Shown here: positions 6,707-64,000 of the stretch, piece by piece
Position numbering within the stretch: position 1 is the stretch's first letter
How the letters are laid out: every line of letters begins with the position of its first letter
From: Apostichopus japonicus
Lineage: Eukaryota; Echinodermata; Holothuroidea; Aspidochirotida; Stichopodidae
Direction: 5' to 3'
NCBI RefSeq assembly: GCF_037975245.1
Contig: NC_092569.1
Span: 22,038,168-22,102,167 of the forward strand
DNA: 64,000 bases
Translations under genes and position numbers: made by a program
The notes under the pieces: generated by a model
What the model saw: only the letters and a program-made list of their open reading frames with translations
Told to the model about the DNA's origin: nothing
Databases searched by the model: none

Positions 6707-20521
<13,815 letters not shown>

Positions 20522-22829: not shown

Positions 22830-23297
22830 ATGGAAAGCCATTTTAACATTTAATCGGGAATTTTAGATATCTGAAATTGTTTCTTATTTCAGATATCTGA
22901 AATTGAATTCGAGATATCTAAAACAGATTTCGAGATATCTGAAATTCTAATTCAGATATCTGAAATTGAATTCGAGATATCTGAAATTGAATTCGAGATA
23001 TCTAAAATAGATTTCGAGATATCTGAAATTCTAATTCAGATATCTGAAATTGAAATCGAGATATCTGAAATTGAATTCGAGATATCCGAAATTGAATTCG
23101 AGATATCTGAAATTCTATTTCAGATATCTTACATTTAATTCGAGATATCTGAAATTGAATTCGAGATATCTGAAATAAAATTCAAGATATCTACAATTCT
23201 AATTCGAGATATCTGAAATTGAATTCGAGATATCTGCAATTGAATTCGAGATATCTGAAATGCATATGCATAAATTCCCGATTAAATGTTAAAATGG
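22830..23297. mobile_element. Nested inverted-repeat element 1 with GATATC satellite
   Basis: Ends are inverted copies: GGAAAGCCATTTTAACATTT on the left and AAATGTTAAAATGGC on the right. The interior is almost entirely a roughly 20-bp repeat of GAGATATCTGAAATTGAATT type, centred on the palindrome GATATC, with some units inverted. Confidence 0.7.
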
Positions 23298-23814
23298 CAC
23301 GTATGGAAAGCCATTTTAACATTTAATCGGTAATTTTCATATATCTCTAATTGAATTCGAGATATCTGAAATTGAATTCGAGATATCTAAAATTCTATTT
23401 CAGATATCTGAAATTGAATTCGAGATATCTGAAATTGAATTCGAGATATCTGAAAATGAATTCGAGATATCTGAAATTTTATTTCAGATATCTGAATTGA
23501 ATTCAAGATATCTGAAATTGAATTCGAGATATCCAAAATTCTATTTCAGATATCTGAAATTGAATTCGAGATATCTGAAATTGAATTCGAGATATCTGAA
23601 ATTGAATTCGAGATATCTCGAATTCAATCTCATATATCTGAAATTCCCTGGTATTTCGAGATATCTGAAATTGATTTTAAGATATCTGCAAATATTTGTA
23701 GATATCTTAAATAAATTGGAGATATCTGTAATTTAATTTGAGATATCTGAAATTATTTCGAGATATCTGAAATTCGTTATTAAATGTTAAAACGGCTTTC
23801 CATACGCGCGGGAA
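23298..23814. mobile_element. Nested inverted-repeat element 2 with GATATC satellite
   Basis: A second, adjacent element of the same build. The left end is CGTATGGAAAGCCATTTTAA and the right end AAATGTTAAAACGGC followed by TTTCCATACGCGCG, the inverse of the left end of element 1. The open frame across 23497-23736 is a product of the satellite and not a gene. Confidence 0.7.
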
Positions 23815-37600: not shown

Positions 37601-40600
37601 ATCCAGAGCAGGCAACATTATCCAACCATATTGGGTCAGATCCTTGACCAAATTTAGCACTTTGCCATCCAACTGCGATGCCTTCATAACCAAGTTGACG
37701 ACATATAACTGATGCATCGTTGTCATCCCATTCGTCATCACATATTGTACCCCACTGACCATCGTGGTACACTTCTACCCGACCTTCGTGCAAAGAAACA
37801 CTACCAACCAGACGCACTGCAATAAATGAAGAGAATAAATATAATCGTGGTAAACTTCTACTCGACTTTCTCGTTGACTAGTCCTGCCAACCAGACGTAC
37901 TTGCAATTTATAATTGTTACGAATTGAATTGTTGGCGTTTCCAAAGTTCCATGTGCCTAATTTACAGAATGTAGAACGTCATCTTGAGGTGTTCAGACAC
38001 AACCTGTAATCGTATTTCAAACAAAACGCATATTAATGGGTATAAGGTGTATTAAAGTTAGTAGACTTTTTTAAACTGATGAATTTATTTAATTACTAAT
38101 ATCGGTAATGTAAATGACAAATAATTTAGCACTAGTATTATTATTATTTAGATAACAGCAGTATAAACTAAAATGTATTATTAATTATAAGATAAGGTAT
38201 AGGTTATTGCAAACATTTCGTTTTTTCTGACAGTATCAAAATAAATTCATCTGTTACTGATATTTTACTTCTGTAATCTTACCTGGACCACAAGAAACAG
38301 AAGCATCTTTACTATGTCCACAATCGTGCACTCCCCAATCATTACTCCCGCATTCTTCGATATGGTGTTCTGATCCAGAGCAAGTAACATCATTCAACCA
38401 AATTCGGTCTGATCCTTGACCAAATTTTGCACTTTGCCATCCAATTCCGATGCCTCCATAACCAAGTTGACGACATATAACTGATGCATCGTTGTCATCC
38501 CATCCGTCATCACATATTGTCCCCCACTGACCATGGTGGTAAACTTCAACCCGACCTTCCCTTGGAACATTTCCATCAACCAGGCGTACTGTAGTAATTA
38601 AAAAGAGAAAAAGTATCATTTTCGCAGTAAGTTTGTTATAACCTCGAAAGGTTTATGCTTACTTTACAACTCTTTACACCTTAATGTTTTCTCCGTCACT
38701 AATCCCACCCACCAGGTGAATTATGGAAAAAATATGACTGCTTTAATATATTGTGAAGCTGTTTGTTTAAATATTATCACTATTGTTAATCATTTGGTAA
38801 ACGGACTGTTCGATTTACATGCCGTTACTAATAGAAACTGTCCTAGCTACTTATCAACACATTTTAATAAAACCATTTATTTCTCCAACAGGACTGTTCC
38901 TAAAATCGTACGTTGTCCTTACACATATGAATATATCTACGTTAAATGTCTTGTATATGCAACTTACACCTGTGACAAGGAATATACATATATATATACA
39001 TAATTAAATACCCCTGGCATATCCTCGAAAGATATATTGCCCTATCAAAATGGACCTGCGCCAAACAATGTAATGTTTACAGCAGTCTATGCGATCCCAT
39101 AACCAAGTAGAAGGCAAAGTTCTGATGTAACTGTGTCATTTCCACTTGTTATAAAACATTGTAACCCCATCATGACTTCACCAAACATACATATTAGACT
39201 ACTTAAGTTACAAAGCGAAATACACGTAACCGTAACGTGAATTTTGCTAATCATGAATTGGCGCCCTTATCAAACAAACTAATGCAGATATCCTAGTAGT
39301 ATAGGCTATCCAAGGAACAAGTTTGGAACTTTTGTTAAATTAAAGAATTTTTGAGCATACATTCATAATACGTTGTATTTACACAGTACGTTCAGTGTGA
39401 CACCTCTTCCCAGATGATGTCACCAACGAAGGGCTACCAGGCTGGGAGGTATTATGAAGTTTGGTTCTATTCACTTTCATGTTATATCTAAAATGCAAAG
39501 AGGGATTCAATGTGTTGTACTTGTTTGGATACGAGGAAATCAGGAGTTACAACATGACATTTTGATGATCATTTTGAAGTCATTCATGCTGGAATTATGA
39601 ATTATCCCACTGAATAAACATTTGTAACCAAAGCAAAATTTGATCATACTTGAATAAGAACGGATTCGTCTATTGGTGATTTGGAACCTAGAATCTGTTC
39701 AATTCGTTAGAGAAAAGAACAAAGTATTTTTTTTATATATAAATTAATCAAACTCATTGAATTTTATGGGCGTTTAAACGTACTTACAATCGATTATATA
39801 TGTTAGTATAGGCTAACCTGTGATACAACGTAATCCAGCATCCTCGTTATGACTACAATGTGTTTGTCCCCATCCAGCGTTACCGCAGTGATCAATGCTG
39901 CCCTCTTCTCCGGAACAAGCAATATTTTCCAGCCATATTGGGCCTGTCCCTTCACCATAGCTAGCGTTACCTGTTGCTATCCCAGTATCACTATAACCAA
40001 GTTGACGGCAAGCCACCGACGCGTCATTGTCATCCCAATATTTACCACAAACAGTACCCCATTGGACATTATGGTAAATCTCGACACGTCCTTCTAAGTT
40101 AGTGGTGCCATTAACAAGTCGAACTGTTAGAAGATGTGCATTTGTAAAGACAAAATAAAACATGATCAATATCAGGGAGTATTCTAAAAACTCAAAAAGT
40201 GTTTGGTTTTGAGGAAAATACTGCAAGTAGACCATTATCCGTTTGTTAATGTTATTTCGTTAAAATATGATCGGAAGATAAAAGCCATACTAATTGTAAC
40301 TTTTGAATGAAGTTACTCCATCCTATAGGCATTCTTCGGAGTACAGGTTAGTCACAGTTTATTATTGTGTGGAGTGACTATATCTGAAGGTGAATGTGAT
40401 TGAGAGCGTCATGTTGTATTTAAAACATTCATTAAAGCACCCACAACTAAACGTTTTGCATTGTACTCAATAAGTGACTGAAATATGATATAATCCGCAG
40501 ACTTTATGAATTACGTTTGATTTCGAATATATTTAAAATTGCTAAAATTGTTTAAATACATCTTCCTCACCAAGTTTAGCCATTTTAATCGCTCTTTTTT

Positions 40601-43266
40601 CCTTCACTAATAATAGTTCTATTATTCTTTTCAGTATCGTTAGAGGGCATCAGCAAACATGCAAATTGATTATTAATTACGCTTACTATGATTTGAGATA
40701 TGTAACTGCAGACTGGAGAGTGTGTATCTTCCCCATTCGTCTGTGATCCTAAAGTAGTCATAGTGCAGCCCATATGTAATATTTAACTCGGTGAAAATGT
40801 CCACACGAAGTTGGTAGTCTCTTTGGTTTGTTAAGTACGCTATTTTTTCAAGTCCGAGCCAAAATTCACTACCAGAGAAACCGAAACCATTTTTGTAGTC
40901 ATACCAGGTGCGATTAAAACCAACAGATCCGTCCAAGCGCCTTTCTAAGACCTGGAACCGTCAAAGAGAAACGTTTTATTAAATGCATAGATTGTTTTTC
41001 TGCGATGTCAATTTCATCGACACCACGTTATGAAAACATCGTTGCTTTCAATAAGATATTGTTTATCTGGTTTGTTAAAACACATATTAAATAGGCCGAA
41101 AAAGGTATATAATGATATTGTTGTATACTTCTTTTTCCCGTAACGGTTGTTTTTTTCTTACTTATATGTTTATATTTATATATGTCTAATAGAATCTTAT
41201 ACGCACCGTCCAAACCACATTTTCTAAATCAGTTTCGCAGTACACATCGAATGGTTCTGCACTCCCATCGGGCTTGATCTGGTAGACACCAGCGCCCGTA
41301 TTATATGTAGAGAACATGGTGAAGGCTTCATTACAATCACTCGGATACAGAGGTTGTTGAAGGAGGTCAAATATGTTTTTGTCTGCTCAGAAAAGGGAAT
41401 CGTAATGTCATGTGAAATTATAGTATTGGTTATTGTTAGGATACATTTCAATGTGTACTATTTTCGCCCTTTCGTCCAAGGATATCCCGGAATGACACAG
41501 AACGTTTTTAGGTAGTAACTACTACCATAATTTTTACTACACTGTATATTAGTGAATGACTCCTACGAAGATGATGGAAACTTCTCGAAGCAGGCATTGC
41601 TTCTATGCTTAGAAATCATGCAACGAGAGTATACAAGAAACTTCCAGAACACAGCTTGCACGCAAACATCAAGTAACTTAACAGCATCCCCATGCGACCG
41701 CCACGTTATTCTCTCTGTGTTCAGAAGCTCTATGTAGCCTAATGTAAAACTAGCTCCATTTTCACAATATTACTGCAAATAATGGTCTATAGACCAAACC
41801 GTTCACTGGTACTTAGTAAGATACTTTTGAGTATCGCATACTGTATATAAGCTTAAGTTAAGTGTCAAAGTAAGTAACTACAGTAATTGATTTCACCCTA
41901 ACCAATAATACTGTACTGATTGGTTTGGAAGAAGGTGTGTGAACGAGAATTCTATTTGAACGAAACATTGAACGATGCTTTATTTTTCCATTAATCGTCT
42001 TCCCGGTTTACGTAAGTTATTTGCATGCATTATCTGATGCCATTCCATTAATAACATTACTTTAATAGAAACATGAAAGGATAAACGTGCTGAATTGATT
42101 GTAACAACATGAGGTGCTAAAGGTTTGCAGAAGTGACAACATAGAACTCACCCAATGAAAGTGCAGTTACGTCCCTAGTTGCGGTAATCTTCCATTAAAA
42201 AAAAGGAATAAAGGGAAACGTTTTATCCATGCACAGTTGCATTATGAGGAATATAAGTAGTTTGTGTGTTACATGCACCCTTAGTTGATTTCATTAGTTT
42301 TCAATTAACCACCATATTAAAAGAAAATTAAGCAAATAACGAAATATATTAATTGCACTATATTAGTGCTATATTACCAATTTTTGCACTATATTACAAA
42401 CTGCTGCATGTCTATCAAATATCTAGCGACTGGACTTTCGCCCGGTCATATAAACATGTTTCATTTATAGAAATGTCTTACTTTTCAATGGATAAAAGTG
42501 TAGTGTTTTCTAGACTAAACACAAAAGTATTTTGAGGCAGGTCTGTCCCAGTTGCTATTTGTATCGCAGTTAGGCGTATTGTTGTTATGAGCACAAACAA
42601 CCATAAGCCAAATACTGCAAATACTGCATACGAAATAAAGCATTCATGTTGTATTAATCCTAGCTAGTCTATATCACGTGATGCACTCTTCCATAAGAGT
42701 TTTTACATTGTTTTCTAAAGAGCTAAACTATCAGTTACAGTATTAAGCAGCTGAGAGTAGACGAGTATTGCACCATGTCACAGTGCTTTCTCGTGTAACT
42801 TTAAACTAAAATGCAAAGTTAAGTAAAGATACGTCGAGGATGAAACAAAATAATGTAAATCAAAGCGATAATTTAATCACTTTTGTCGCAAATCCCTAAA
42901 CTTACAATAAAAAAACAATTGCAATTTTTCAACTTTTCTTGAGAAGAATTTTAGGTTCATGAGTTTTTACCTTTCCAATATGTAGTGCATGTTAAGGGTG
43001 GCCCTGGGATCGTTTAAGCAATTTCTCTTGAATTGTTGGGCATAGTTAGGGTATAAATTTAGTCACTCTCTTCTTAGATCTATACGTAAGTTGTGCTAAA
43101 TACTATGTTTATTCTCGTTGGAGTTGATAAGGAGAACTGGTACTGCTGCACACATAACATTCCTCCCCTGTATTCCCCCCTACATCCAACTTACCGTAGT
43201 ATTCCTATGAACGAAAGCAATGAACAGTACCCAATATAACCGTTGAATTAGCTTTAAAAGTTCCAT
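34237..43266 (-). CDS. Gene 2: secreted fibrinogen-like / 7x SRCR protein
   Basis: Paralogue of gene 1 with 11 exons and about 895 residues: signal peptide, 37-nt linker exon, shortened fibrinogen-like domain, seven SRCR domains. Every junction keeps the phases seen in gene 1, and exon lengths are identical (72, 37, 176, 265, 306 x 6, 302). No stop or broken splice site is seen in the listed exons, so both copies look functional. The difference in SRCR number (7 against 10) comes from gain or loss of exon-intron units and from exon decay. Expected to be secreted with a recognition or adhesion role; this is inferred from domain families, not shown by the sequence. Confidence 0.8.
34566..34641. 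repeat. (TA)n microsatellite
   Basis: About 75 bp of TA repeat 28 bp from the terminal-exon acceptor, the same place as the larger repeat in gene 1. Confidence 0.95.
35193..35498 (-). CDS. Gene 2 exon 10: SRCR domain 6
   Basis: 306-bp exon, [57 protein letters not shown]. The first two thirds are almost the same as exon 9. Confidence 0.85.
35887..36192 (-). CDS. Gene 2 exon 9: SRCR domain 5
   Basis: 306-bp exon, [54 protein letters not shown]. Exon and upstream intron are nearly identical to exon 10 and its intron (35499-35600), indicating a recent exon duplication or conversion. Confidence 0.85.
36808..37113 (-). CDS. Gene 2 exon 8: SRCR domain 4
   Basis: 306-bp exon, [57 protein letters not shown]. 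The acceptor is GAAG, a variant of the GCAG used elsewhere. Confidence 0.85.
37511..37816 (-). CDS. Gene 2 exon 7: SRCR domain 3
   Basis: 306-bp exon, [54 protein letters not shown]. Counterpart of gene 1 exon 6 by its upstream relic. Confidence 0.85.
37843..37899 (-). pseudogene. Half-exon SRCR relic
   Basis: [19 protein letters not shown] then intron-like sequence; paralogous to 15820-15876 in gene 1, so it predates the gene duplication. Confidence 0.7.
38283..38588 (-). CDS. Gene 2 exon 6: SRCR domain 2
   Basis: 306-bp exon, [59 protein letters not shown]. Its counterpart in gene 1 (16262-16477) is dead. Confidence 0.85.
39090..39190 (-). pseudogene. SRCR exon trace
   Basis: Only a scrap recalling the CRQLGY coding block (complement of CATAACCAAGT at about 39100) remains, followed by sequence paralogous to 16485-16560. 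Very weak as an exon in itself. Confidence 0.35.
39818..40123 (-). CDS. Gene 2 exon 5: SRCR domain 1
   Basis: 306-bp exon, [56 protein letters not shown]. The CGK variant at the domain start is shared with gene 1 SRCR domain 1. Confidence 0.85.
40687..40951 (-). CDS. Gene 2 exon 4: fibrinogen-like domain, second part
   Basis: [43 protein letters not shown]. Ends at the same early point as gene 1, before the C-terminal third of the family fold. Confidence 0.85.
41207..41382 (-). CDS. Gene 2 exon 3: fibrinogen-like domain, first part
   Basis: [40 protein letters not shown]. Same length and splice sites as in gene 1. Confidence 0.85.
42152..42188 (-). CDS. Gene 2 exon 2: 37-nt linker exon
   Basis: [12 protein letters not shown] plus one base, phase 0 to 1, G|GTGAGT donor. 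The copy in gene 1 differs by one residue. Confidence 0.55.
43195..43266 (-). CDS. Gene 2 exon 1: signal peptide
   Basis: [18 protein letters not shown] and six further residues; hydrophobic core conserved with gene 1; donor ACG|GTAAGT. Confidence 0.75.
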
Positions 43267-47708: not shown

Positions 47709-47934
47709 GGCGGAGTGTATAGGCTAGTGGTTAACGCCGGCGTCTCCCAGTCATGAGATCCCCGGTTCGATTCCCCGCCGACAGCAATGTGTGTCGTCTG
47801 GCAAGGGTGTTGTTCAATAACAACTTCCTGACATGGACGTTAAATGGATGTGTGCCGAGAGATTGGCTTCGGTCAGCTTGCGAGTCTACAAGCCTCCATG
47901 GCTTCTTTCGCGAGTTCCTGCTTGCGGGAAGATC
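47709..47934 (+). mobile_element. tRNA-derived SINE, copy 1
   Basis: The head carries Pol III promoter boxes: A box TAGGCTAGTGG (about 47720-47730) and a perfect B box GGTTCGATTCC (47764-47774), in a tRNA-like context. A tRNA-unrelated body follows to 47934, then a long CATA tail. A second copy in inverse orientation is at 48899-49086, which shows this is an interspersed family and not a tRNA gene. Confidence 0.85.
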
Positions 47935-48434
47935 ATACATACATACATACATACATACATACATACATACATACATACATACATACATACATACATACAT
48001 ACATACATACATACATACATACATACATACATACATACATACATACATACATACATACATACATACATACATACATACATACATACATACATACATACAT
48101 ACATACATACATACATACATACATACATACATACATACATACATACATACATACATACATACATACATACATACATACATACATACATACATACATACAT
48201 ACATACATACATACATACATACATACATACATACATACATACATACATACATACATACATACATACATACATACATACATACATACATACATACATACAT
48301 ACATACATACATACATACATACATACATACATACATACATACATACATACATACATACATACATACATACATACATACATACATACATACATACATACAT
48401 ACATACATACATACATACATACATACATACATAC
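47935..48434. repeat. (CATA)n SINE tail microsatellite
   Basis: 500 bp of pure tetranucleotide repeat directly after the SINE body. The long open frames (YIHT and CMYV repeats) on both strands are artefacts. Confidence 0.95.
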
Positions 48435-52905: not shown

Positions 52906-52920
52906 ATAGAAGAACAATAA

Positions 52921-54680
52921 TATCAGAAAAAAGGTTAGGAATTAGTTAAAGCTATCCTCAAAAACAGAACAATGTAACAGGCAGAGGGCCTCTATGGGAG
53001 TCAATGACTTTAACAAAACAAACTTCATCAGAAAAATTGAAGGCTATCCTAAATCATAGGCCTAGGTTCAAAGGTATTTCCATGGTAAAATAGGAAAATA
53101 GAAATAAAAAATCAACAGTCATAAAATTAGCAAACCATCCCCAAACACAGGACAAAATTACATGCATAAATCCTCTATGTATGGGAGTCAATGACTATAG
53201 AATAGGAGAATATTCAAAAAGTCAGGAAATATTTGTATCCAATCTCAAGCACAGGACAATTTTATCTGGCATAGGGCCTATATTAGAGTCCAGGATTATA
53301 CTACAGTTAACTTCACCGAGCAAGATGATTGAAAGCCATCCTAAATCACAGGCACTTGTTAATTGGTATGTTCTTGATGACATAGAAGAACATCTATATC
53401 AGAAAAGGTCAGGAAATATTTAAATCTATCCTCAAAAACAGAACAATGTAACAGGCACAGGGCCTCTATGGGAGCTGTCAATGACTTTAACAAAACAAAT
53501 TCATCAGAAAACTTGAAGGTTATCCTAAATCATAGGCCTAGGTTCAAAGGTATTTCCATGATAAAATAGGAAAATAGAAATAAAAAATCAAAGGTCATAA
53601 AATTAGTTAACCATCCCCAAACACAGGACAAAATTACATTCATAATTCTCTATGTATGGGAGTCAATGACTATAGAATAGGAGAACATTAAAAAAAAGGA
53701 AATATTTGTACCCAATCTCAAGCACAGGACAATTTTATCTGGCATAGGGCCTATATTAGGGTCTAGGATAATACTACAGTTAACTTCACAATGCAAGATG
53801 ACTAAAAGCCGTCCTAAATCACAGGCACTTGTTGATTGGTATGTTCTTGATGACATTGAAGAACAATAATAACAGGAAAGGTCAGGAAATATTTAAATCT
53901 ATCCTCAAAAACAGAACAATGTAACAGGCAGAGGGCCTCTATGGGAGTCAATGACTTTAACAAAACAAACTTCATCAGAAAAATTGAAGGCTATCCTAAA
54001 TCATAGGCCTAGGTTCAAAGGTATATCCATGATAAAATAGGAAAATAGAAATAAAAAATCAAAGGTCATAAAATTAGTTAACCATCCTCAAACACAGGAC
54101 AAAATTACATTCATAAATCCTCTATGTATGGGAGTGAATGACTATAGAATAGGAGAACACTAAAAAGGAAATATTTGTACCCAATCTCAAGCACAGGACA
54201 ATTTTATCTGGCATAGGGCCTATATTAGAGTCCAGGATTATACTACAGTTAACTTCACCGAGCAAGATGATTGAAAGCCATCCTAAATCACAGGCACTTG
54301 TTAATTGGTATGTTCTTGATGACATAGAAGAACAATTATATCAGAAAAGGTCAGGAAATATTTAAATCTATCCTCAAAAACAGAACAATGTAACAGGCAC
54401 AGGGCCTCTATGGGAGCCAATGACATTAACAAAACAAATTTCATCAGAAAAATTGAAGGTTATCCTAAATCGTAGGCCTAGGTTCAAAGGTATTTCCATG
54501 ATAAAATAGGAAAATAGAAATAAAAAATCAAAGGTCATAAAATTAGTTAACCATCCTCAAACACAGGACAAAATTACATTCATAAATCCTCTATGTATGG
54601 GAGTCAATGACTATAGAATAGGAGAATATTAAAAAAGTCAGGAAATATTTGTATCCAATCTCAAGCACAGGACAATTTTA
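52921..54680. repeat. 470-bp tandem repeat (satellite)
   Basis: Nearly four units; the landmark ATCCTCAAAAACAGAACAAT recurs at about 52952, 53427, 53898 and 54368 (spacing 470-475 bp). Internal sub-repeats (hanging on ACAGGACAA and GGGCCT) suggest each unit is itself built from a shorter ancestor. Confidence 0.85.
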
Positions 54681-55333
<653 letters not shown>

Positions 55334-55500
55334 CTACTTGATTCCCCAAGCAGGGAGATGGAGTATTTGGATAAGAGAGGCTTTTCCTTCTCTTCTGCTC
55401 CTTGCCCTCATAGGGCCATAATGGACACCCAAAGAGTCACCAATGATTTCGAAGTCTGCTTCTGCAAGAAGCCTGCCAGCTTTGAGGGAAGATTGTACCC
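55334..55500 (-). CDS. BRCT exon 4 (terminal)
   Basis: Completes the conserved tryptophan (W, split codon), then VQSSLKAGRLLAEADFEIIG, GPMRARSRREGK and a stop after PAWGIK. This parallels the end of BRCA1 BRCT 1 and the linker; a second BRCT is absent. Confidence 0.8.
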
Positions 55501-58500
55501 CTATATTACAAAGGTATGAGAATAGACAAAACATGAAGAACCATTATCTACAGTACATTACATTTTTAATGGCTGATTTTCAGAACTTCTTAAAATCTCA
55601 AGTGCTGTACCTCTTAATTATTATAGAAATTTCCAAAACTACCATCAGCAAAGAAATAAAATTGGAAGCTTAATATCTACCATTAGCAACTGCTTTCAAC
55701 ATATATTCAATGAAGTAATAGCAAGAGATCATTCTCAATATATGCACATTTGCTGAGCTGAAATACATTTGTCTATTTATGATCATTATCACTTTAAACT
55801 TCCCCTGTTCAAAATACAAGAAGTTCAGGAACCAACATGGCTCAGCAAAATTTCAAAAACTCATTCAAATGAGTGGCATGCAAAGAAGCACCCCTAATGC
55901 AAACAGGTGGACAGAACAAAATTGTTTCTTAATTTGCACGCATTAACATATCATCATTAGCTGCTGCCATACCACACATGCTCCAAGCATAAAGGAGTGA
56001 AACCTACACATATAGTCAGTATATTTCAAATTCCAATAACACACAAATGTTTTGAAACTGTATGCCCAATGCAACTTCCATTTAACTGTCTAATCACTCT
56101 CAATATGTCAAGTTACTGTGTTGTACCATATATAACTTCCATTTACAAAATGACCTGTTTCAAACAAGGATGATTATAAGTGCTTAGCAGAGAGACATAT
56201 AATTGGAAACAATTCCATATTTAAATGTTGTAACTGAAAAAGTTTTTTAAAGATAGTTCTATATGAGTTCTGCTATCACTGAAGCAACTGATGGGTGTTG
56301 CTTATTTTGGTTAACATTTTGTCCAAAGGCCAAAGCCACTCTTGAACTTTAATCTATCGTCACCGTTTGATGTTCTACAGTTTTGACTTCTTTATCCTTT
56401 TCTGCCCTGACACTGCCTTACTGAGTGACCAACATCTACATACTGAATGACTTTTGTCCTACTATATAGGGCATAGTCCTAAATCAGAAACAGAATCTTT
56501 GTACAACACTGCAGGTAAAAGGACTGATCAAGCATATGTGCAGGTGATAAGAACATATTATAAACATATATAGTCACATGGACAGACAAATTCATTTAAA
56601 CTTACATGAGTAGCTCACTATCCACAATCCAGCAGCAATGCCTGTAATATACTTCATAGTTCTGGGACATTTCCCCTTTTCTGCAAAAAAGATTTAAAAC
56701 ACAAAGTGATTTTGCTTCCTTTATTGTTTGTGAAATTACCTAATCAGTCCTTGATAAAATGTATGTACACAACCTGCACTAGTTAATAAAGTTTATGAAT
56801 GACATTCAAGAAGGTCAGCCTGAGGTCAGAATTTTGACAATGTCAACAAGTGCACACTTCTAAGGGTATTAAAGAACTCCTTATCACACCCAGCAATTAA
56901 ACTCAAACATGAAGATATATGTAAGAATACTGAAATCCATGAGTTTACACATTTTATTCACATGTGCTGTTGGTTAATGATTACTTAAAAGATTTTGAAG
57001 TTTCCAATAACATGAAGCGAGTTAACTAACTGATAAAAGAATGAGAAGACATTAAAATAGAGTTACAACAATACTCACCAGCAATGAGAATAACATGGGT
57101 TGTGGTACTCTCTATCATTGCAGTATATCTACAACCATGGAGGTCTGCCAGCTTCTGTATATGATTCTGTATAGCAAAATCAGATAGGTTAAAAAAAATT
57201 GAAGTGAGTATAATTTGTCACTTATAAATGTGAATATAAACCACATTTATGCTCTTAATTGAAGAGTATATTTAGGATCTTACTTTTGATCAATTTTCAA
57301 AGTCTGAAGCACAATCATGTAAATTCTAACACTAGAAATAACAGATAGTGAATAACTTTCTTTACAAGTCAGTAATATTCATATCCATGCATGCACAAAA
57401 GAGAATGTTCACATAAATGTCAAATAACCTCTTAAAGGAGTTCACAAGAGCACCAATGGTACAGTAACTCATACCATAATGACAGTATGAATTAGAGCAG
57501 CTAATAAGAGTCCAATTAAAAACCCTTTGTCACAGCGTGAGCTGAATTTCAACCAAAGCTATTAGTATTCTGGATAATCACAAGTCTTTGACCAAAAAGT
57601 CCTTAAGATTAATGATAAGGGCACAATAATGGACAGCCTGCACCGAATAATACAACTCACACTGCAATGAATGAATAGGCCTAACCTATATGCATATTGC
57701 ATTAGCAAAGTTAAGTTTGGTATGGAGAGCAAAAATGTTTACAGTATGTTGTTTTCACTTGCCTTCAAGTTTTGAAAAGATCCCTAAATCTGCCTGTTGT
57801 TGTCAAAAATGGCTGTTGATAACCCAAACTCTGACAAAATATTCCCCAACACACGCATAAACAAAAAACTGTACAGCAATAGGAAGGATATATTTATCTC
57901 CCTTTTCATAAAAATAGCTATCAGCTGTGTGAGTGTGTCCTGACATCTGCTCTTGATAACAGAAAGTTTCTTAAGTTAACACACATGTCCATGGACAGAA
58001 TACCACTCACCTGCTGGAACCGATGCTTTAAGCCACTTGACACAAATGAGAATGCACTTAGGACAGTCTCTGCATCCATCTGGTCTGGCAAAGGATCACT
58101 TAGATTTTTTGTGTCTGCAGATCCACTAGGGACAGTCTCTGCATCCATTTGGTCTGGCAAAGGATCACTTTGATTTTTGGTGTCTGCAGATCCACTAGGG
58201 ACAGTCTCTGCATCCATCTGGTCTGGCAAAGGATCACTTTGATTTTTGGTGTCTGCAGATCCACTAGGGACAGTCTCTGCATCCATTTGGTCTGGCAAAG
58301 GATCACTTTGATTTTTGGTGTCTGCAGATCCACTAGGGACAGTCTCTGCATCCATCTGGTCTGGCAAAGGATCACTTTGATTTTTGGTGTCTGCAGATCC
58401 ACTAGGGACAGTCTCTGCATCCATCTGGTCTGGCAAAGGATCACTTTGATTTTTGGTGTCTGCAGATCCACTAGGGACAGTCTCTGCATCCATCTGGTCT

Positions 58501-59332
58501 GGCAAAGGATCACTTTGATTTTTGGTGCATGCAGATCCACTAGGGACAGTCTCTGAATCCATCTGGTCTGGCAAAGGATCACTTTGATTTTTGGTGTCTG
58601 CAGATCCACTAGGGACAGTCTCTGCATCCATCTGGTCTGGCAAAGGATCACTTTGATTTTTGGTGTCTGCAGATCCACTAAAGACAGTCTCTGCATCCAT
58701 CTGGTCTGGCAAAGGATCGCTTTGATTTTTGGTGTCTGCAGATCCACTAAAGACAGTCTCTGCATCCATTTGGTCTGGCAAAGGATCACTTTGATTTTTG
58801 GTGCACGCAGATCCACTAGGGACAGTCTCTGAATCCATCTGGTCTGGCAAAGGATCACTTTGATTTTTGGTGTCTGCAGATCCACTAAAGACAGTCTCTG
58901 CATCAACCTGGTCTGGCAAAGGATCACTTTGATTTTTGGTGTCTGCAGATCCACTAGGGACAGTCTCTGCATCCATCTGGTCTGGCAAAGGATCACTTTG
59001 ATTTTTGGTGTCTGCAGATCCACTAGGGACAGTCTCTGCATCCATTTGCTCTGGCAAAGGATCACTTTGATTTTTGGTGTCTGCACAATATTGTATGGTG
59101 CAACTATCAGGATTGAGATGATTTTCTAAAAAAGAAAAAATAATTGAATATGATAACAACACAAAGATCAGAGTGATTTTCGACATAGCCGAAGTGGCCA
59201 ATGGTTCATATAAACAGGCCATATATTGGCAGATTTGATGCCCCAAAACAGTGAACAATTAAACAGATACATGCCTGCTTATATGCAAACATTTTGTAAA
59301 ATCAACTTTTAATCAAACTCGTCCTTGAATTG

Positions 59333-59420
<88 letters not shown>

Positions 59421-62400
59421 TTATATGCCTCTTGATCATTCAACTTAATTAGTATTCAACTGATGAATTCCAAAGACAGTAGAATCCTACAATCCAGCTG
59501 CATAGTCACTTGCAAAATTCATAAAGACTTTCAAATTACTTGATATAGAAATGTAATAACAAGCATTTACAAATATCCCAAGCTGAGAACAATTGGGAAT
59601 TGTGCAGTTTTAATTGTATGGCACTGCTCCAGCATTACTGCACTGTTACTTGTCTTTGACTGTGCTCTTGGTACATATTTGTAAGTATATATGCTATATT
59701 TGTGGGTTGGTTCCAACAATCTATTTAATGACACAACTTTTGTGGCCTTACTATATGCTCTGTAAGAACTAAAAGCTTGTGAAACAAGAAATGTAGGTGA
59801 GCTCCAAAACAATATTTACATTCAAAACAAACAATACATGAAAACTCTGAAAAGCACTTTCTGAGAGGTATACGTACCTTTGACAGTTTTGAATTCATAT
59901 TTATACCGTACTTTCATACTTTAAACATACCAGTTTTTAAGAATTGCTTCTTAATCTGCTTTCACCTAACCAACCCTAAATCAAGCAGTGTTGAAGGTTT
60001 TACTCAGTCAATGGTGAGGCATAGAAGTTTTAGCCTAATAACTTACCCTCATAAAATGCTATGCAATCCTCAATAGTGGGCCTCAGTTTTTCATCTCTGT
60101 TAAGCATGTTTTCCAATAGTGGCTGAAAAGTGTCATGTGTTCCAAGATGTTTAAGGCTATATTGACCCTTTTTCATGTTTGTCACCAGACCTTCTGGCTG
60201 ATCAGTGTAAGGCACTGTGGTTTCGAATGGGACATGTCCATCACTCAAAATGTAATACATACCAACATCTGAAAGAAGGAAAAATACTTACAAAATAATT
60301 AAAATTGATCATAACTTTCAAATGTAATGTTTAAATTGTATGTTAATCAATTTCAAAAAGTGAGATTGAAGATTTCCTTTTTTTTTCAAGACCGTCTCCT
60401 TAGTAGTGGATCCATAACTAACGTACCGCTGAAAATCATTTTGAAAATTGACTGTTTAATGATTTATGGCATAAAAAAAGTAAAAATATTGTATAATAAT
60501 GTTGTCAGATTGCTGCCAGTTTCCTGTACAGTAGAGGTGCTTGTGGCATTTGTCTTCACAGAAATAACTAAATAGATAGTGGTGCAGTAGTTGTGTGGAG
60601 ACAGGTTAGTGAGAAGTGAAGTCAATTTTAAAGATTTCCACCATCCAGTGACTAACATATTTTGCATTGCTTATGGGGAAAAATCACTGCAAACCAGTTG
60701 TTTTAGGTATCATGCACTCAACTTTTACAAAATGTTATGGTTATGATCGCATGGATAGTTATGCAATTGGTTTTGAAGGACAGAAACCTGTTAAAGTTTT
60801 AAGTGTACATTATACAGTCTGTGCAATCATGATATTTTGGGATGTTGGGCCAAATTCTCTGTGTATCAGATAGTAATTAGAATGCAAGGCAAGCACATGT
60901 CGAGGTAATACAATGCAACACAATTACATTTTCAATTGAAAATTTGTTTGGGAAGTGTTTTATTATACAAATAATTTATTTTAGCATAAAAGAGTCATTT
61001 GATAACATGGTGTTTATAATCTAAGAAGAAAAGAGAGGTTGTTGCATGGATGAGTAGTTAGATCTATGTAGATTGGACAAGGTGTTTTCATAACAGTTAT
61101 TAAGATTGATTATTTGTAATCTATGTAACACTAAGTAGGAGTAAAGTGGAGAAGCGTTATACTCCTTACCCAATTCCATGCTTTATCACTGATCAGAAGT
61201 AGTCTTGAAAATAACATGGAGTTAACAATATTCAAGATTGAGGCATATGAATAATAGATTCCACAATCACATTACCAGAGGTGACCGTCCACCGAACAGT
61301 GACCCTTCTTAATTTGCAAATAAGCTAACAGGGCTAAATAAACCTTCCATCGCAAAAAGTATTACTGTCATGGCAAATGAAGTTATCCCATGACTTATGG
61401 AGTACATGGCAAAACAATGTGAAATCACCCACAGTTGTCTCATTTCCAATTTTCAATTGTGACTTATAATCATTGTACAAATGTACTGTAAGTCCTTTAG
61501 TGTAAAACAAGAACTTGTATTGTTTTCTCTCGTCATCTTTCTTTACCAGGAAAACTTTCTGTCTCTACGGGAAAATCCTACTGTCCCAAAATCAAGAGCT
61601 TGTCCATTCTATTGATTTTTTTGTGACAAAATATATAATAGTCAACTCTTCAAAGAGGGCTTCACTGTTCATATATTATTGACCTAACAGTAATTGTATG
61701 AAAGCAATAGCAGGATCATTGCAAAAGCTATCACATTTTATTTTGATATCTTGAAAATGAAATATATATACTTATAATGTAATTAACATGTCTAATCTCA
61801 AGGAAGTGGTATGTAAGTGCAACCAACATAATGACATAAAGAACAGACTGGATAAAGTGGTATATACTTCACTATTCCCTCGTTAAACAAACGCTGGCTG
61901 AAACAGACAGTTTAAATCAATTTGTGAGTAATTTTTTGGCTGCCAAGATATATTTAAGTAGCTTGACAGTGGCTCAAATACAGCAGCAATCCTGTTAATC
62001 AAAGCAAATAGTTGTTATGTCTCACCTGGATATCAGATGACTTCTTGTATCGGCAACGATTGTTGCTGGTGTTTTCAGGACTTGTCGAGCAGAGAGTTCC
62101 CATTGCTTTTGTAAGAAGGGTAGTGCCATGGGTAAATTGTCTAGAAATACCAAAATCTCCCAGAAGTATCTTTTCATTGTGATCTATGAACAAACAAAAG
62201 CAATTAATGTGCAATTAGTATAGACAATAAATCCATAAAAGACAATTTGATTTCTGCACAGAATGGTGACTATTGTTACTTTTACATTACTAATAAAATA
62301 AAATTATACCTTTATATATGATTTTCTGTTTTAATTGAAGCTGTAAAGCTATTAAATTAAAAGTTTCTTCTACATGATTTTAATACCACTACAATGTTTG

Positions 62401-63218
62401 TGGACATTTACAAATTTAATTTGGAAAATTTGGAATGAATAACATCATTCAAAAGATTTGACTGTAAAATATAAATCAATACTGAGAGTGATAACTTGAA
62501 GGCAAACTGGGACTAACAGTTTTAGCATGCTTAAAATTGAGGGCAATTCTCATTGACCTGTGACCAAAATTACAATCATGCATGGCTCTTCTGCTGCTGT
62601 TGGTTTTTGTAATGCTGTGCAAAAGTTGTGTTGAATTTGATACAAACAAGTTAATGACCAGCACCATGGAATGGAAATCTCTAATACTCAATACAACATT
62701 CTGAAATGACTCTCAAACAAGCCCTGTGACTGCTTACCTAAGAGAACATTACTTGGTTTCAAGTCCCGGTGGAGAATGTTCAGTTGATGCAATTCTGCAA
62801 TGCCGAGCATAAGTTGATAAGTTAGAGATGCTCTTTTGTTTGCTGTGAGCTGAGGTCTTAATGGGTTCCCCTTGTTTTCAATTATTTCCTCTAAGTTATA
62901 TTCACAAAGGGGTGAAGCTAAATAGAGAAAGTCATCATCTTCTTCCGAAAGTGTGTTTCTTAACAAATGCTTTGATCCTTGCATGCCCTCATTAAGCACT
63001 TTATTCACAGTTTGTTCCATAGAGTGGGTGCCCTGGTTCAGTCTTTTGATTGCTACAGGCCATTGCTCATCTACCAGTCCAATGAAAATTTGTGCGCCAT
63101 TGCTACCATCAGCAATTTTGTACTGCCTGCTGAAAGAAAGTCGCCCAATTGACTTGAAACAAACTCCAGAGTCTTTGTTTAGGAGCTGCTCTAACTGATG
63201 AGCCCATCGCTGTTGGTT
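55334..63218 (-). CDS. Kinase / 23-residue repeat / BRCT gene (3' part)
   Basis: Seven exons of a gene whose 5' end lies outside the window. Order in the protein: Ser/Thr kinase domain of IRE1-like type (exons at 62738, 62026 and 60047), an exon with fifteen 23-residue repeats (58011), and a BRCT domain of BRCA1 first-repeat type spread over the end of that exon and three more (57079, 56606, 55334), then stop. Phases match at all joins except kinase exon 2 (exit phase 0) to exon 3 (entry phase 1), where a small exon may be missing. The repeat-to-BRCT join is secure because the BRCT fold starts inside the repeat exon. The kinase-to-repeat join rests on phase, order and the absence of other exons in 900 bp. 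If real, this is a kinase with a phosphopeptide-recognition module, perhaps nuclear; function is inference. Confidence 0.65.
55501..56605. other. Intron of the kinase-BRCT gene
   Basis: No exon recognised in this 1.1-kb intron. Confidence 0.6.
56606..56680 (-). CDS. BRCT exon 3
   Basis: KGKCPRTMKYITGIAAGLW then IVSYS: corresponds to RTLKYFLGIAGGKWVVSY of BRCA1 BRCT 1. The arginine and lysine used there for phosphoserine binding are kept. Acceptor TTTTTTGCAG, donor CAT|GTAAGT. Confidence 0.85.
57079..57166 (-). CDS. BRCT exon 2
   Basis: NHIQKLADLHGCRYTAMIES then TTTHVILIAG: helix 1, strand 2 and strand 3 of a BRCT domain, matching the TTHVV motif of the family. Acceptor CTATACAG, donor G|GTGAGT. 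Confidence 0.8.
57167..58010. other. Intron between repeat exon and BRCT exon 2
   Basis: No exon recognised. Confidence 0.6.
58011..59125 (-). CDS. Repeat exon: fifteen 23-residue units and BRCT start
   Basis: 1115-bp exon with a strong acceptor (TTTTTTCTTTTTTAG) and CAG|GTGAGT donor. After NHLNPDSCTIQYC come 15 tandem units of the type ADTKNQSDPLPDQMDAETV plus PSGS. Units are acidic and rich in P, S, T, D and E, so probably disordered. Variants (DSETV, ACTK, VFSGS) recur at units 3-5 and 8-9, hinting at a higher-order duplication. After the array FSFVSSGLKHRFQQ forms the first strand of the BRCT domain. Confidence 0.8.
58042..59083 (-). repeat. 69-bp coding minisatellite, 15 units
   Basis: 69-bp units with very few differences, in frame (23 codons). 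The near-identity keeps several other frames open on both strands; those are shadows. Confidence 0.95.
59126..60046. other. Intron between kinase and repeat exon
   Basis: Contains a TA microsatellite at 59334-59418 and no recognisable exon or promoter; important because it separates the two halves of the proposed fusion. Confidence 0.55.
60047..60268 (-). CDS. Kinase exon 3 (C-lobe)
   Basis: VGMYYILSDGHVPFET, LENMLNRDEKLRPTIEDC and FYE, with the conserved arginine near the domain end. Acceptor TTTCAG, donor G|GTAAGT. Entry phase 1 does not fit the phase 0 exit of exon 2, so a short exon or a one-base indel lies between. Confidence 0.75.
60269..62025. other. Intron between kinase exons 2 and 3
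   Basis: 1.76 kb without a recognised exon; a small phase-correcting exon could be hidden here. Confidence 0.5.
62026..62183 (-). CDS. Kinase exon 2 (activation segment)
   Basis: DHNEKILLGDFGISRQF with the DFG motif, AMGTLCSTSPENTS in place of the usual GT-x-APE, and YKKSSDIQ carrying the conserved aspartate of helix F. Acceptor TTCATAG, donor CAG|GTGAGA in phase 0. Confidence 0.8.
62184..62737. other. Intron between kinase exons 1 and 2
   Basis: 554 bp, flanked by phase 1 splice sites (TTAG|GTAAGC and TTCATAG). No further exon or repeat recognised. Confidence 0.6.
62738..63218 (-). CDS. Kinase exon 1 (N-lobe and catalytic loop)
   Basis: Acceptor TTTATTAG, 160 codons plus one base. Gly-rich loop IADGSNGAQIFIGLV, ATP-anchoring lysine in PVAIKRL, hinge region PLCEYNLEEIIE, then LTYQLMLGIAELHQLNILHR followed by DLKPSNVLL. 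The donor is G|GTAAGC. The sequence style (LHQLNILHRDLKPSN) is closest to IRE1-like kinases, but no RNase (KEN) domain or lumenal part is seen. Confidence 0.85.
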
Positions 63219-63379
63219 CTAATAAAGAACAAAAATCAATTGCATTAAATCAATTTCTAACAAAACACTGACTTGAGGGAAAGAACATCCAACAGTTATT
63301 TTAACATAACTTCATCCAAGAGACCTGTATATGCTAATTAGGTAAACACTTTACACTCAGGTGGCCATGATTTTAAAAC

Positions 63380-64000
63380 GTAAATGTAACAGACAGGTTA
63401 GAATCCACCCTCAAACACAGGACCATAGTAAGGGTCATTAGGTATACACTGTTCATTCAGTAGCCATGAAAAAGTAACTGTAACAGACAGGTTAGAATCC
63501 ACCCTAAACACAGGACCATGGTAAGGGTCATTAGGTATACACTGTACATTCAGGTGGTCATATGAAAGTAACTGTAACAGACAGGTTAGAATCCACCCTC
63601 AAACACATGACCATAGTCATTAGGTATACACTGTACATTCAGTAGCCATGAAAAAGTAACTGTAACAGACGAGTTAGAATCCACCCTCAAACACAGGACC
63701 ATAGTAAGGGTCATTAGGTTTACACTATACATTCAGTAGCCATGAAAAAGTAAAGTTCTGTAACAGACAGGTTAGAATCCACCCTCAAACACAGGACCAT
63801 AGTAAGGGTCATAAGGTATACACTGTACATTCAGTAGCCATGAAAAAGTAACTGTAACAGACAGGTTAGAATCCACCCTCAAACACAGGACCATGGTAAG
63901 GGTCATTAGGTATACACTGTACATTCAGGTGGTCATATAAAAGTAACTGTAACAGACAGGTTAGAATCCACCCTCAAACACAGGACCATAGTAAGGGTCA
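63380..64000. repeat. 94-bp tandem repeat, continuing past the window
   Basis: GTTAGAATCCACCCT recurs at 63397, 63491, 63585, 63673, 63771, 63865 and 63960 (spacing 88-98, mostly 94). It lies in the intron or region upstream of kinase exon 1 and shares the core CAAACACAGGAC with the satellites at 48.6-54.7 kb. Confidence 0.9.

Follow-up and report, generated by a model that had tools for sequence, protein, structure and literature searches.

A probable chimeric gene of IRE1-like kinase and BRCA1-type BRCT exons in the sea cucumber Apostichopus japonicus

The nearest printed precedent for the gene described here is a KEN-BRCT fusion in a table of a HEPN survey (PMC3710099); the fusion likewise joins an IRE1-family domain to a BRCT domain, although it is the ribonuclease (RNase, KEN) domain that is named and the pairing is not kinase-BRCT. 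The other systems that come close are the kinases of the IRE1/RNase L family, and BRCA1. The protein cited for the KEN-BRCT fusion (gi 218187285) is presumably from rice. Here we describe a locus within a 64,000-nucleotide stretch of the Apostichopus japonicus genome (NC_092569.1, positions 22,038,168 to 22,102,167; the window), in which three IRE1-like kinase exons, one exon of tandem repeats and three BRCT exons follow one another on the minus strand. Sequence comparisons suggest that it is probably one copy of a sea cucumber chimeric gene, with IRE1-like kinase exons upstream of BRCA1-type BRCT1 exons and, in Apostichopus, a coding minisatellite between them (5 units in one copy, 15 in the other). 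No paper describing a kinase-BRCT pairing was found in the literature searched, mostly by abstract openings, and neither BRCT nor BRCA1 occurs in the accessible part of PMC13228809. A first-pass annotation, made from the letters alone, knew of no described family combining the three parts, and in the literature searched this holds; the sequence is not new, however, and the architecture is already present in NCBI as a gene model named 'uncharacterized protein' (P0001). The exons are as follows.

62738..63218, minus strand: first of the window's kinase exons (N-lobe, HRDLKPSN); AG/GT borders; 95.6% identity to P0001 residues 15-174
62026..62183, minus strand: second kinase exon (DFG, activation loop); AG/GT borders; ends in phase 0 (SSDIQ)
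60047..60268, minus strand: third kinase exon (C-lobe, MYYILSDGHVPFE...); AG/GT borders; start 7 nt short relative to P0001
58011..59125, minus strand: repeat exon of 1115 bp, with a 14-residue lead-in, 15 repeats and the first BRCT strand (SFVSSGLKHRFQQ); AG/GT borders; junction as in P0001
58050..59084, minus strand: 15 tandem 69-bp units (ADTKNQSDPLPDQMDAETVPSGS) by tandem-repeat count; P0001 has 5 units
57079..57166, minus strand: first BRCT exon, 88 bp; AG/GT borders; PF00533 and PDB sequence matches
56606..56680, minus strand: second BRCT exon (CPRTMKYITGIAAGLWIVSY); AG acceptor, donor CAT/GTAAG; 65% identity over 20 residues to a human BRCA1 probe
55334..55500, minus strand: third BRCT exon in the frame of the first-pass annotation, with a TAG end; AG acceptor only; one base more than P0001, near 55385-55382
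55213..55383, minus strand: continuation of the last exon in the frame of P0001 (KPLLSKYSISLLGESSSGPEG...FVSTL) to a stop; 55 of 56 residues equal to P0001 539-594, within an open reading frame at 55213-55407

The 5′ exon, which in P0001 starts MDERDHADNIKPFQ, was not found anywhere in the window. A tandem array of ~94 bp units (63337-64000, seven copies) lies directly upstream of the first kinase exon, and it probably sits within the intron that conceals the 5′ exon.

The joined kinase exons match PF00069 (E 1.2e-28) and contain the HRDLKPSN and DFG motifs, and a search of PDB sequences places IRE1 at the top (E 3.3e-19, 72.6 bits), with NEK2 at 61.6 bits, among the best 60 of 1918 matches. 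In an AlphaFold model built for P0001 from 21 sequences, block means of the predicted local distance difference test (pLDDT) are 73-95 across most of the kinase, with a low of 31 at the activation loop, and the best 50 of 2000 Foldseek matches to this model are all IRE1. By both PDB sequences and Foldseek the domain is an IRE1-like Ser/Thr kinase of the IRE1/RNase L family, as the first-pass annotation had read it. It resembles the IRE1 and RNase L kinases in sequence and predicted fold, and differs from them in that P0001 has no KEN endoribonuclease domain (no PF06479 at E≤10); in the window, the repeats come after the kinase. On the N-terminal side, where members of this family carry a luminal sensor and membrane span or ankyrin repeats, P0001 starts just 14 residues before the part encoded by the first kinase exon of the window, too few in that model for luminal or membrane-spanning sequence; P0001 is a gene model, however, and the window does not show its own 5′ exon. 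We note that many IRE1-like kinases are present in cyprinid fish (P0123, P0129 and others), some of which carry a CARD (PF00619 in the precomputed Pfam column), and that they have the SDIQVAG motif in common with the sea cucumber kinase family.

The joined BRCT exons match PF00533 (E 1.8e-08), and when they are used to search PDB sequences, BRCA1 accounts for 18 of the 27 matches at E≤1e-3 (best E 5.9e-16, 61.8 bits), with microcephalin at 32.8 bits and BARD1 at 25.5 bits. On both counts this is a first BRCT domain (BRCT1) of the BRCA1 type. The first BRCT exon is 88 bp long, and in human BRCA1, too, one exon of BRCT1 is 88 bp long. At the positions that align with BRCA1 S1655, G1656, R1699, T1700 and K1702, the residues here are S, G, R, T and K, and the sequence has the phosphoserine-BRCT signature, a Ser-Gly pair in strand one and a Lys in helix two. 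In BRCA1, the phosphoserine contacts given in PMC10974778 are S1655, K1702 and the backbone of G1656. Of the BRCT pair in BRCA1, only the first member was found in the domain that had been annotated as BRCA1-type: tblastn across the whole window with a human BRCT2 probe gave nothing convincing (best E 0.24), with the proviso that such probes have modest sensitivity, the equivalent BRCT1 probe matching the second (2.3e-05) and third (2.5e-04) BRCT exons and missing the first. P0001 also has a single PF00533 stretch, and no RING family is among the 11 Pfam families listed for it at E≤10. The likeness to BRCA1 BRCT1 therefore lies in the sequence and the phosphoserine-contact residues, and the difference in the absence of RING and BRCT2 from P0001, where a kinase replaces the body of BRCA1.

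Evidence that these parts belong together comes from P0001, an Apostichopus japonicus model of 594 aa on a 34.6 Mb contig. A search with the kinase part, covering 5.8 billion proteins and limited to fusion-like lengths, compared 1494 candidates, of which 134 had E≤1e-3; P0001 is the best match (E 2.1e-177) and, among the best 120 of the 134, the only one to show PF00533 in a Pfam column that is truncated for some long entries. It is also the sole match to the BRCT part among 286 candidates, which ranged from ~453 to 1442 aa (824-residue query), with longer echinoderm BRCA1 proteins outside this comparison. P0001 reads from its start through the kinase, ENHLNPDSCTIQYC, five repeats and the BRCT domain, and it uses kinase-to-repeat and repeat-BRCT junctions identical to those of the window. 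The array in the window has exactly 15 units of 69 bp with no indels. There are fifteen 23-residue repeats, the third kinase exon leaves one base and the repeat exon supplies the two that are needed (the join reads ...IAFYE-ENHLNPDSC), and the repeat exon ends within the first BRCT strand, all as first annotated. The kinase-to-repeat link, which had been considered the weak point, is supported by the same junction in P0001; the junction between the second and third kinase exons is out of frame. The two copies differ at 13 of 298 aligned residues in the kinase and lead-out (excluding the broken junction), at 2 of 110 in the BRCT domain, and in repeat number, and P0001 has no frame breaks and a C-terminus that reads KPLLSK...FVSTL.

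The reading frame of the window copy is broken twice. At the first break, the second and third kinase exons are out of phase because the start of the third lacks 7 nt (near 60262/60261) relative to P0001, which reads SDNQMLACLMYYILSDG here; 7 nt more would be needed to reach MYYILSDG in the frame of P0001 (SDNQMLACLMYYIL), and literal splicing gives 220 residues that end SSDIQMLVCITF-stop, inside the kinase. At the second, there is one extra base in an A run near 55385-55382 in the last BRCT exon. Here P0001 reads RREGKPLLSKYSISLLGESSSGPEG... whereas the frame first annotated reads RREGKASLIQILHLPAWGIK-stop, and the P0001 frame goes on at 55383-55216 with 55 of 56 residues identical. Mechanically, the BRCT exons do stay in phase up to the stop at 55334, as had been proposed, but by comparison with P0001 the frame has shifted and that stop is a product of the shift. 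Rescue of the kinase frame by alternative splicing is unlikely: with donors from -90 to +60 nt of the end of the second exon and acceptors up to 150 nt before the MYYIL codon, four splice pairs keep the frame, but their two donors, at 62081 and 62057, are weak by eye, and using them would cost the protein some of its activation segment or of the sequence that follows. Most likely, the window holds a damaged allele or paralogue or a copy with assembly errors, and as written this copy encodes no full protein. Whether it could be intact in the animal, with both breaks being sequencing or assembly errors, bears on a further sequence, P0141 (193 aa; source marked lgn, five member sequences, which we take to be assembled public reads), in which 190 of 190 aligned residues are identical to part of the first kinase exon and its intron, with TGA read as W. 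This identity, by which a second source has the same kind of sequence, and the single-base nature of the A-run break favor errors, although P0141 covers neither break; the other break is of 7 nt, and the protein letters of P0001 suggest that ATGT would flank it, as would be expected for a slippage deletion. We regard an intact copy as possible but doubtful. P0141 itself is translated across the sea cucumber intron with W at three TGA codons, apparently the effect of a wrong genetic code in its source's gene calling.

Linkage of kinase and BRCT is also seen in two other sequences, identified with a kinase-alignment query that gave 84 proteins at E≤1e-3 among 3150 candidates. One is P0146, a gene model of Holothuria leucospilota (103.9 Mb contig), in which the counterpart of the window's first kinase exon is followed by GDDLICSRTMKYMTGIAAGLWIVSY, which corresponds to the second BRCT exon. 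In a single BLASTP comparison with P0001 its kinase and BRCT parts give E values of 4e-40 and 4e-11, and 18 of 19 PDB matches to its 33-residue tail at E≤10 are BRCA1 chains (best E 3.8e-05). Holothuriidae and Stichopodidae are separate families of one order. The first-pass annotation had proposed searching for the same domain order elsewhere and had named unlinked kinase and BRCT genes in related genomes as a sign against the fusion; the order recurs in P0001, and in Holothuria leucospilota the two are linked, a kinase exon being joined to a BRCT exon in one short gene model. The second sequence is P0122, from a 1852-nt ENA contig, where a single unbroken frame of 303 residues runs from kinase into the start of a BRCT, without repeats. 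It reads on uninterrupted where, in the window, three splice sites border the kinase exons, its kinase is 43% identical to P0001, and the BRCT start lies ~16 residues past the kinase match; the 61-residue tail alone matches PF00533 (E 9.6e-05, 23.0 bits). A two-BRCT-signature pattern search of 203 retrieved proteins marked only P0001, P0122 and P0146. The proposal of a fusion protein is supported by these three sequences; against it stand the out-of-frame junction of the second and third kinase exons, the frameshifted C-terminus of the window copy and the finding of BRCT1 alone.

Several observations weigh against a single chimeric gene, and some of these concern the linkage. P0001 and P0146 are known as gene models and not as transcripts, no Pfam BRCT is found in P0146, either whole or with the tail alone, and its BRCT exon could instead be part of an adjacent gene. 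The BRCT in P0122 is only a start, scoring E 0.001 and 19.7 bits in the whole protein, below the 21.3 bits of Pfam; BLASTP to the P0001 BRCT gives E 0.67, the tail has no PDB sequence at E≤0.001 (the best, 0.024, is the BRCT protein Rtt107), and by eye it has T and D at BRCA1 S1655 and G1656. From sequence we consider the BRCT assignment in P0122 to be of moderate strength. A simple alternative is that two adjacent genes on the same strand, one a kinase and the other a BRCT gene or relic, have been misjoined by gene predictors in each genome. All the named models are predictions, and there are kinase stretches without a BRCT match in P0125 (Holothuria leucospilota, on another contig), P0126 and Ptychodera P0121, as well as P0127 and Ptychodera P0002 with no BRCT in the precomputed Pfam column; P0125-P0127 lend weak support since they are short fragments. 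The same order in two families and the single frame of P0122 argue against misjoining, and we consider it improbable.

The other contrary observations concern whether a chimeric protein is intact and functional. The window copy, as read, may be without a working protein product. The AlphaFold model of P0001 (overall mean pLDDT 59.6) is usable for the kinase only, with block means of 26-51 from residue 421, so that the structure check suggested in the first-pass annotation gives an IRE1-like fold for the kinase but a model too poor in the BRCT region, and the BRCT structure was set aside. With BRCT2 missing, there is no pocket for residue +3 of a BRCA1 ligand, and BRCA1's specificity for that residue could not be retained as such. 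Among the repeat units there are 19 nonsynonymous to 9 synonymous differences, where 79% nonsynonymous are expected (raw counts), and the repeat copies were rejected as a sign of coding selection; nor is their open frame alone proof of coding, because the opposite strand is likewise open across long parts of the array. P0001 has DNQMLAC where DIQV(A/V)G is present in 15 of 16 motif copies of 20 aligned relatives, the lone exception being the end of a model, P0002. We take seriously, while thinking it unlikely, that this is a decaying locus, a chimera without function kept as pseudogene copies, because there are lesions in both the window and P0001. The two frame breaks, the unfound BRCT2, the lack of evident constraint in the repeats and the loss of I and G from the DIQVxG motif of P0001 all point this way, as does an S in the window's second kinase exon (P0001 position 207) where relatives have W in 15 of 15 true kinase residues (17 of 17 letters, of which P0126 and P0146 are misaligned ends). 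Against decay, the window exons have no in-frame stop besides the two shifts, P0001 is open across 594 residues, the BRCT domains of the copies are nearly identical, and the catalytic K, HRD and DFG are retained.

If the chimeric gene is real, it probably arose by exon shuffling, and an intact protein would be a predicted kinase that carries a phosphoserine reader. The BRCT could dock the kinase on partners phosphorylated beforehand, or on the protein's own linker in its phosphorylated form; the kinase might phosphorylate targets that its BRCT holds, or the BRCT might recognize repeats that bear phosphate, in the same molecule or a sister one, with the repeats acting as a flexible tether whose length drifts. 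More tentatively, and with some skepticism, the sequences could represent a holothuroid (perhaps wider) family of single-chain writer-readers, each an RNase-less IRE1-derived kinase with a length-variable minisatellite tether that differs between copies and a BRCA1-type reader that steers it to pre-phosphorylated targets. Such an animal protein would unite a kinase of the unfolded-protein-response lineage with the phosphopeptide-reading end of BRCA1, and would offer a natural way to ask whether a BRCA1-type BRCT1 on its own can still read phosphoserine, with 5 and 15 repeats as natural linker-length variants. If the locus is decaying, it is a warning that the frame of a chimeric gene model should be checked at each junction.

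The locus adjoins SRCR genes. A cluster of SRCR exons extends across 6707-40259 on the minus strand, and five of ten open reading frames scanned across the window match PF00530 (E 1.4e-29 to 2e-32), with further SRCR-like exons seen by eye. Two blocks on the minus strand, at 17215-18354 and 39813-40960, are near-identical by eye and each combine an exon for SRCR with one for the fibrinogen C-terminus (PF00147, E 2e-20 and 5.5e-20), and they probably represent a recent segmental duplication. Rfam gives no matches at the gathering threshold over the window. There are several other tandem repeats, including a 469-bp repeat (3.8 copies; 52906-54681) downstream of the BRCT end, a run of ~125 copies of CATA with 100% match (47934-48434), and a 21-bp array of ~42 copies at 22891-23774 that is partly open on the plus strand as ISEIEFE-like repeats.

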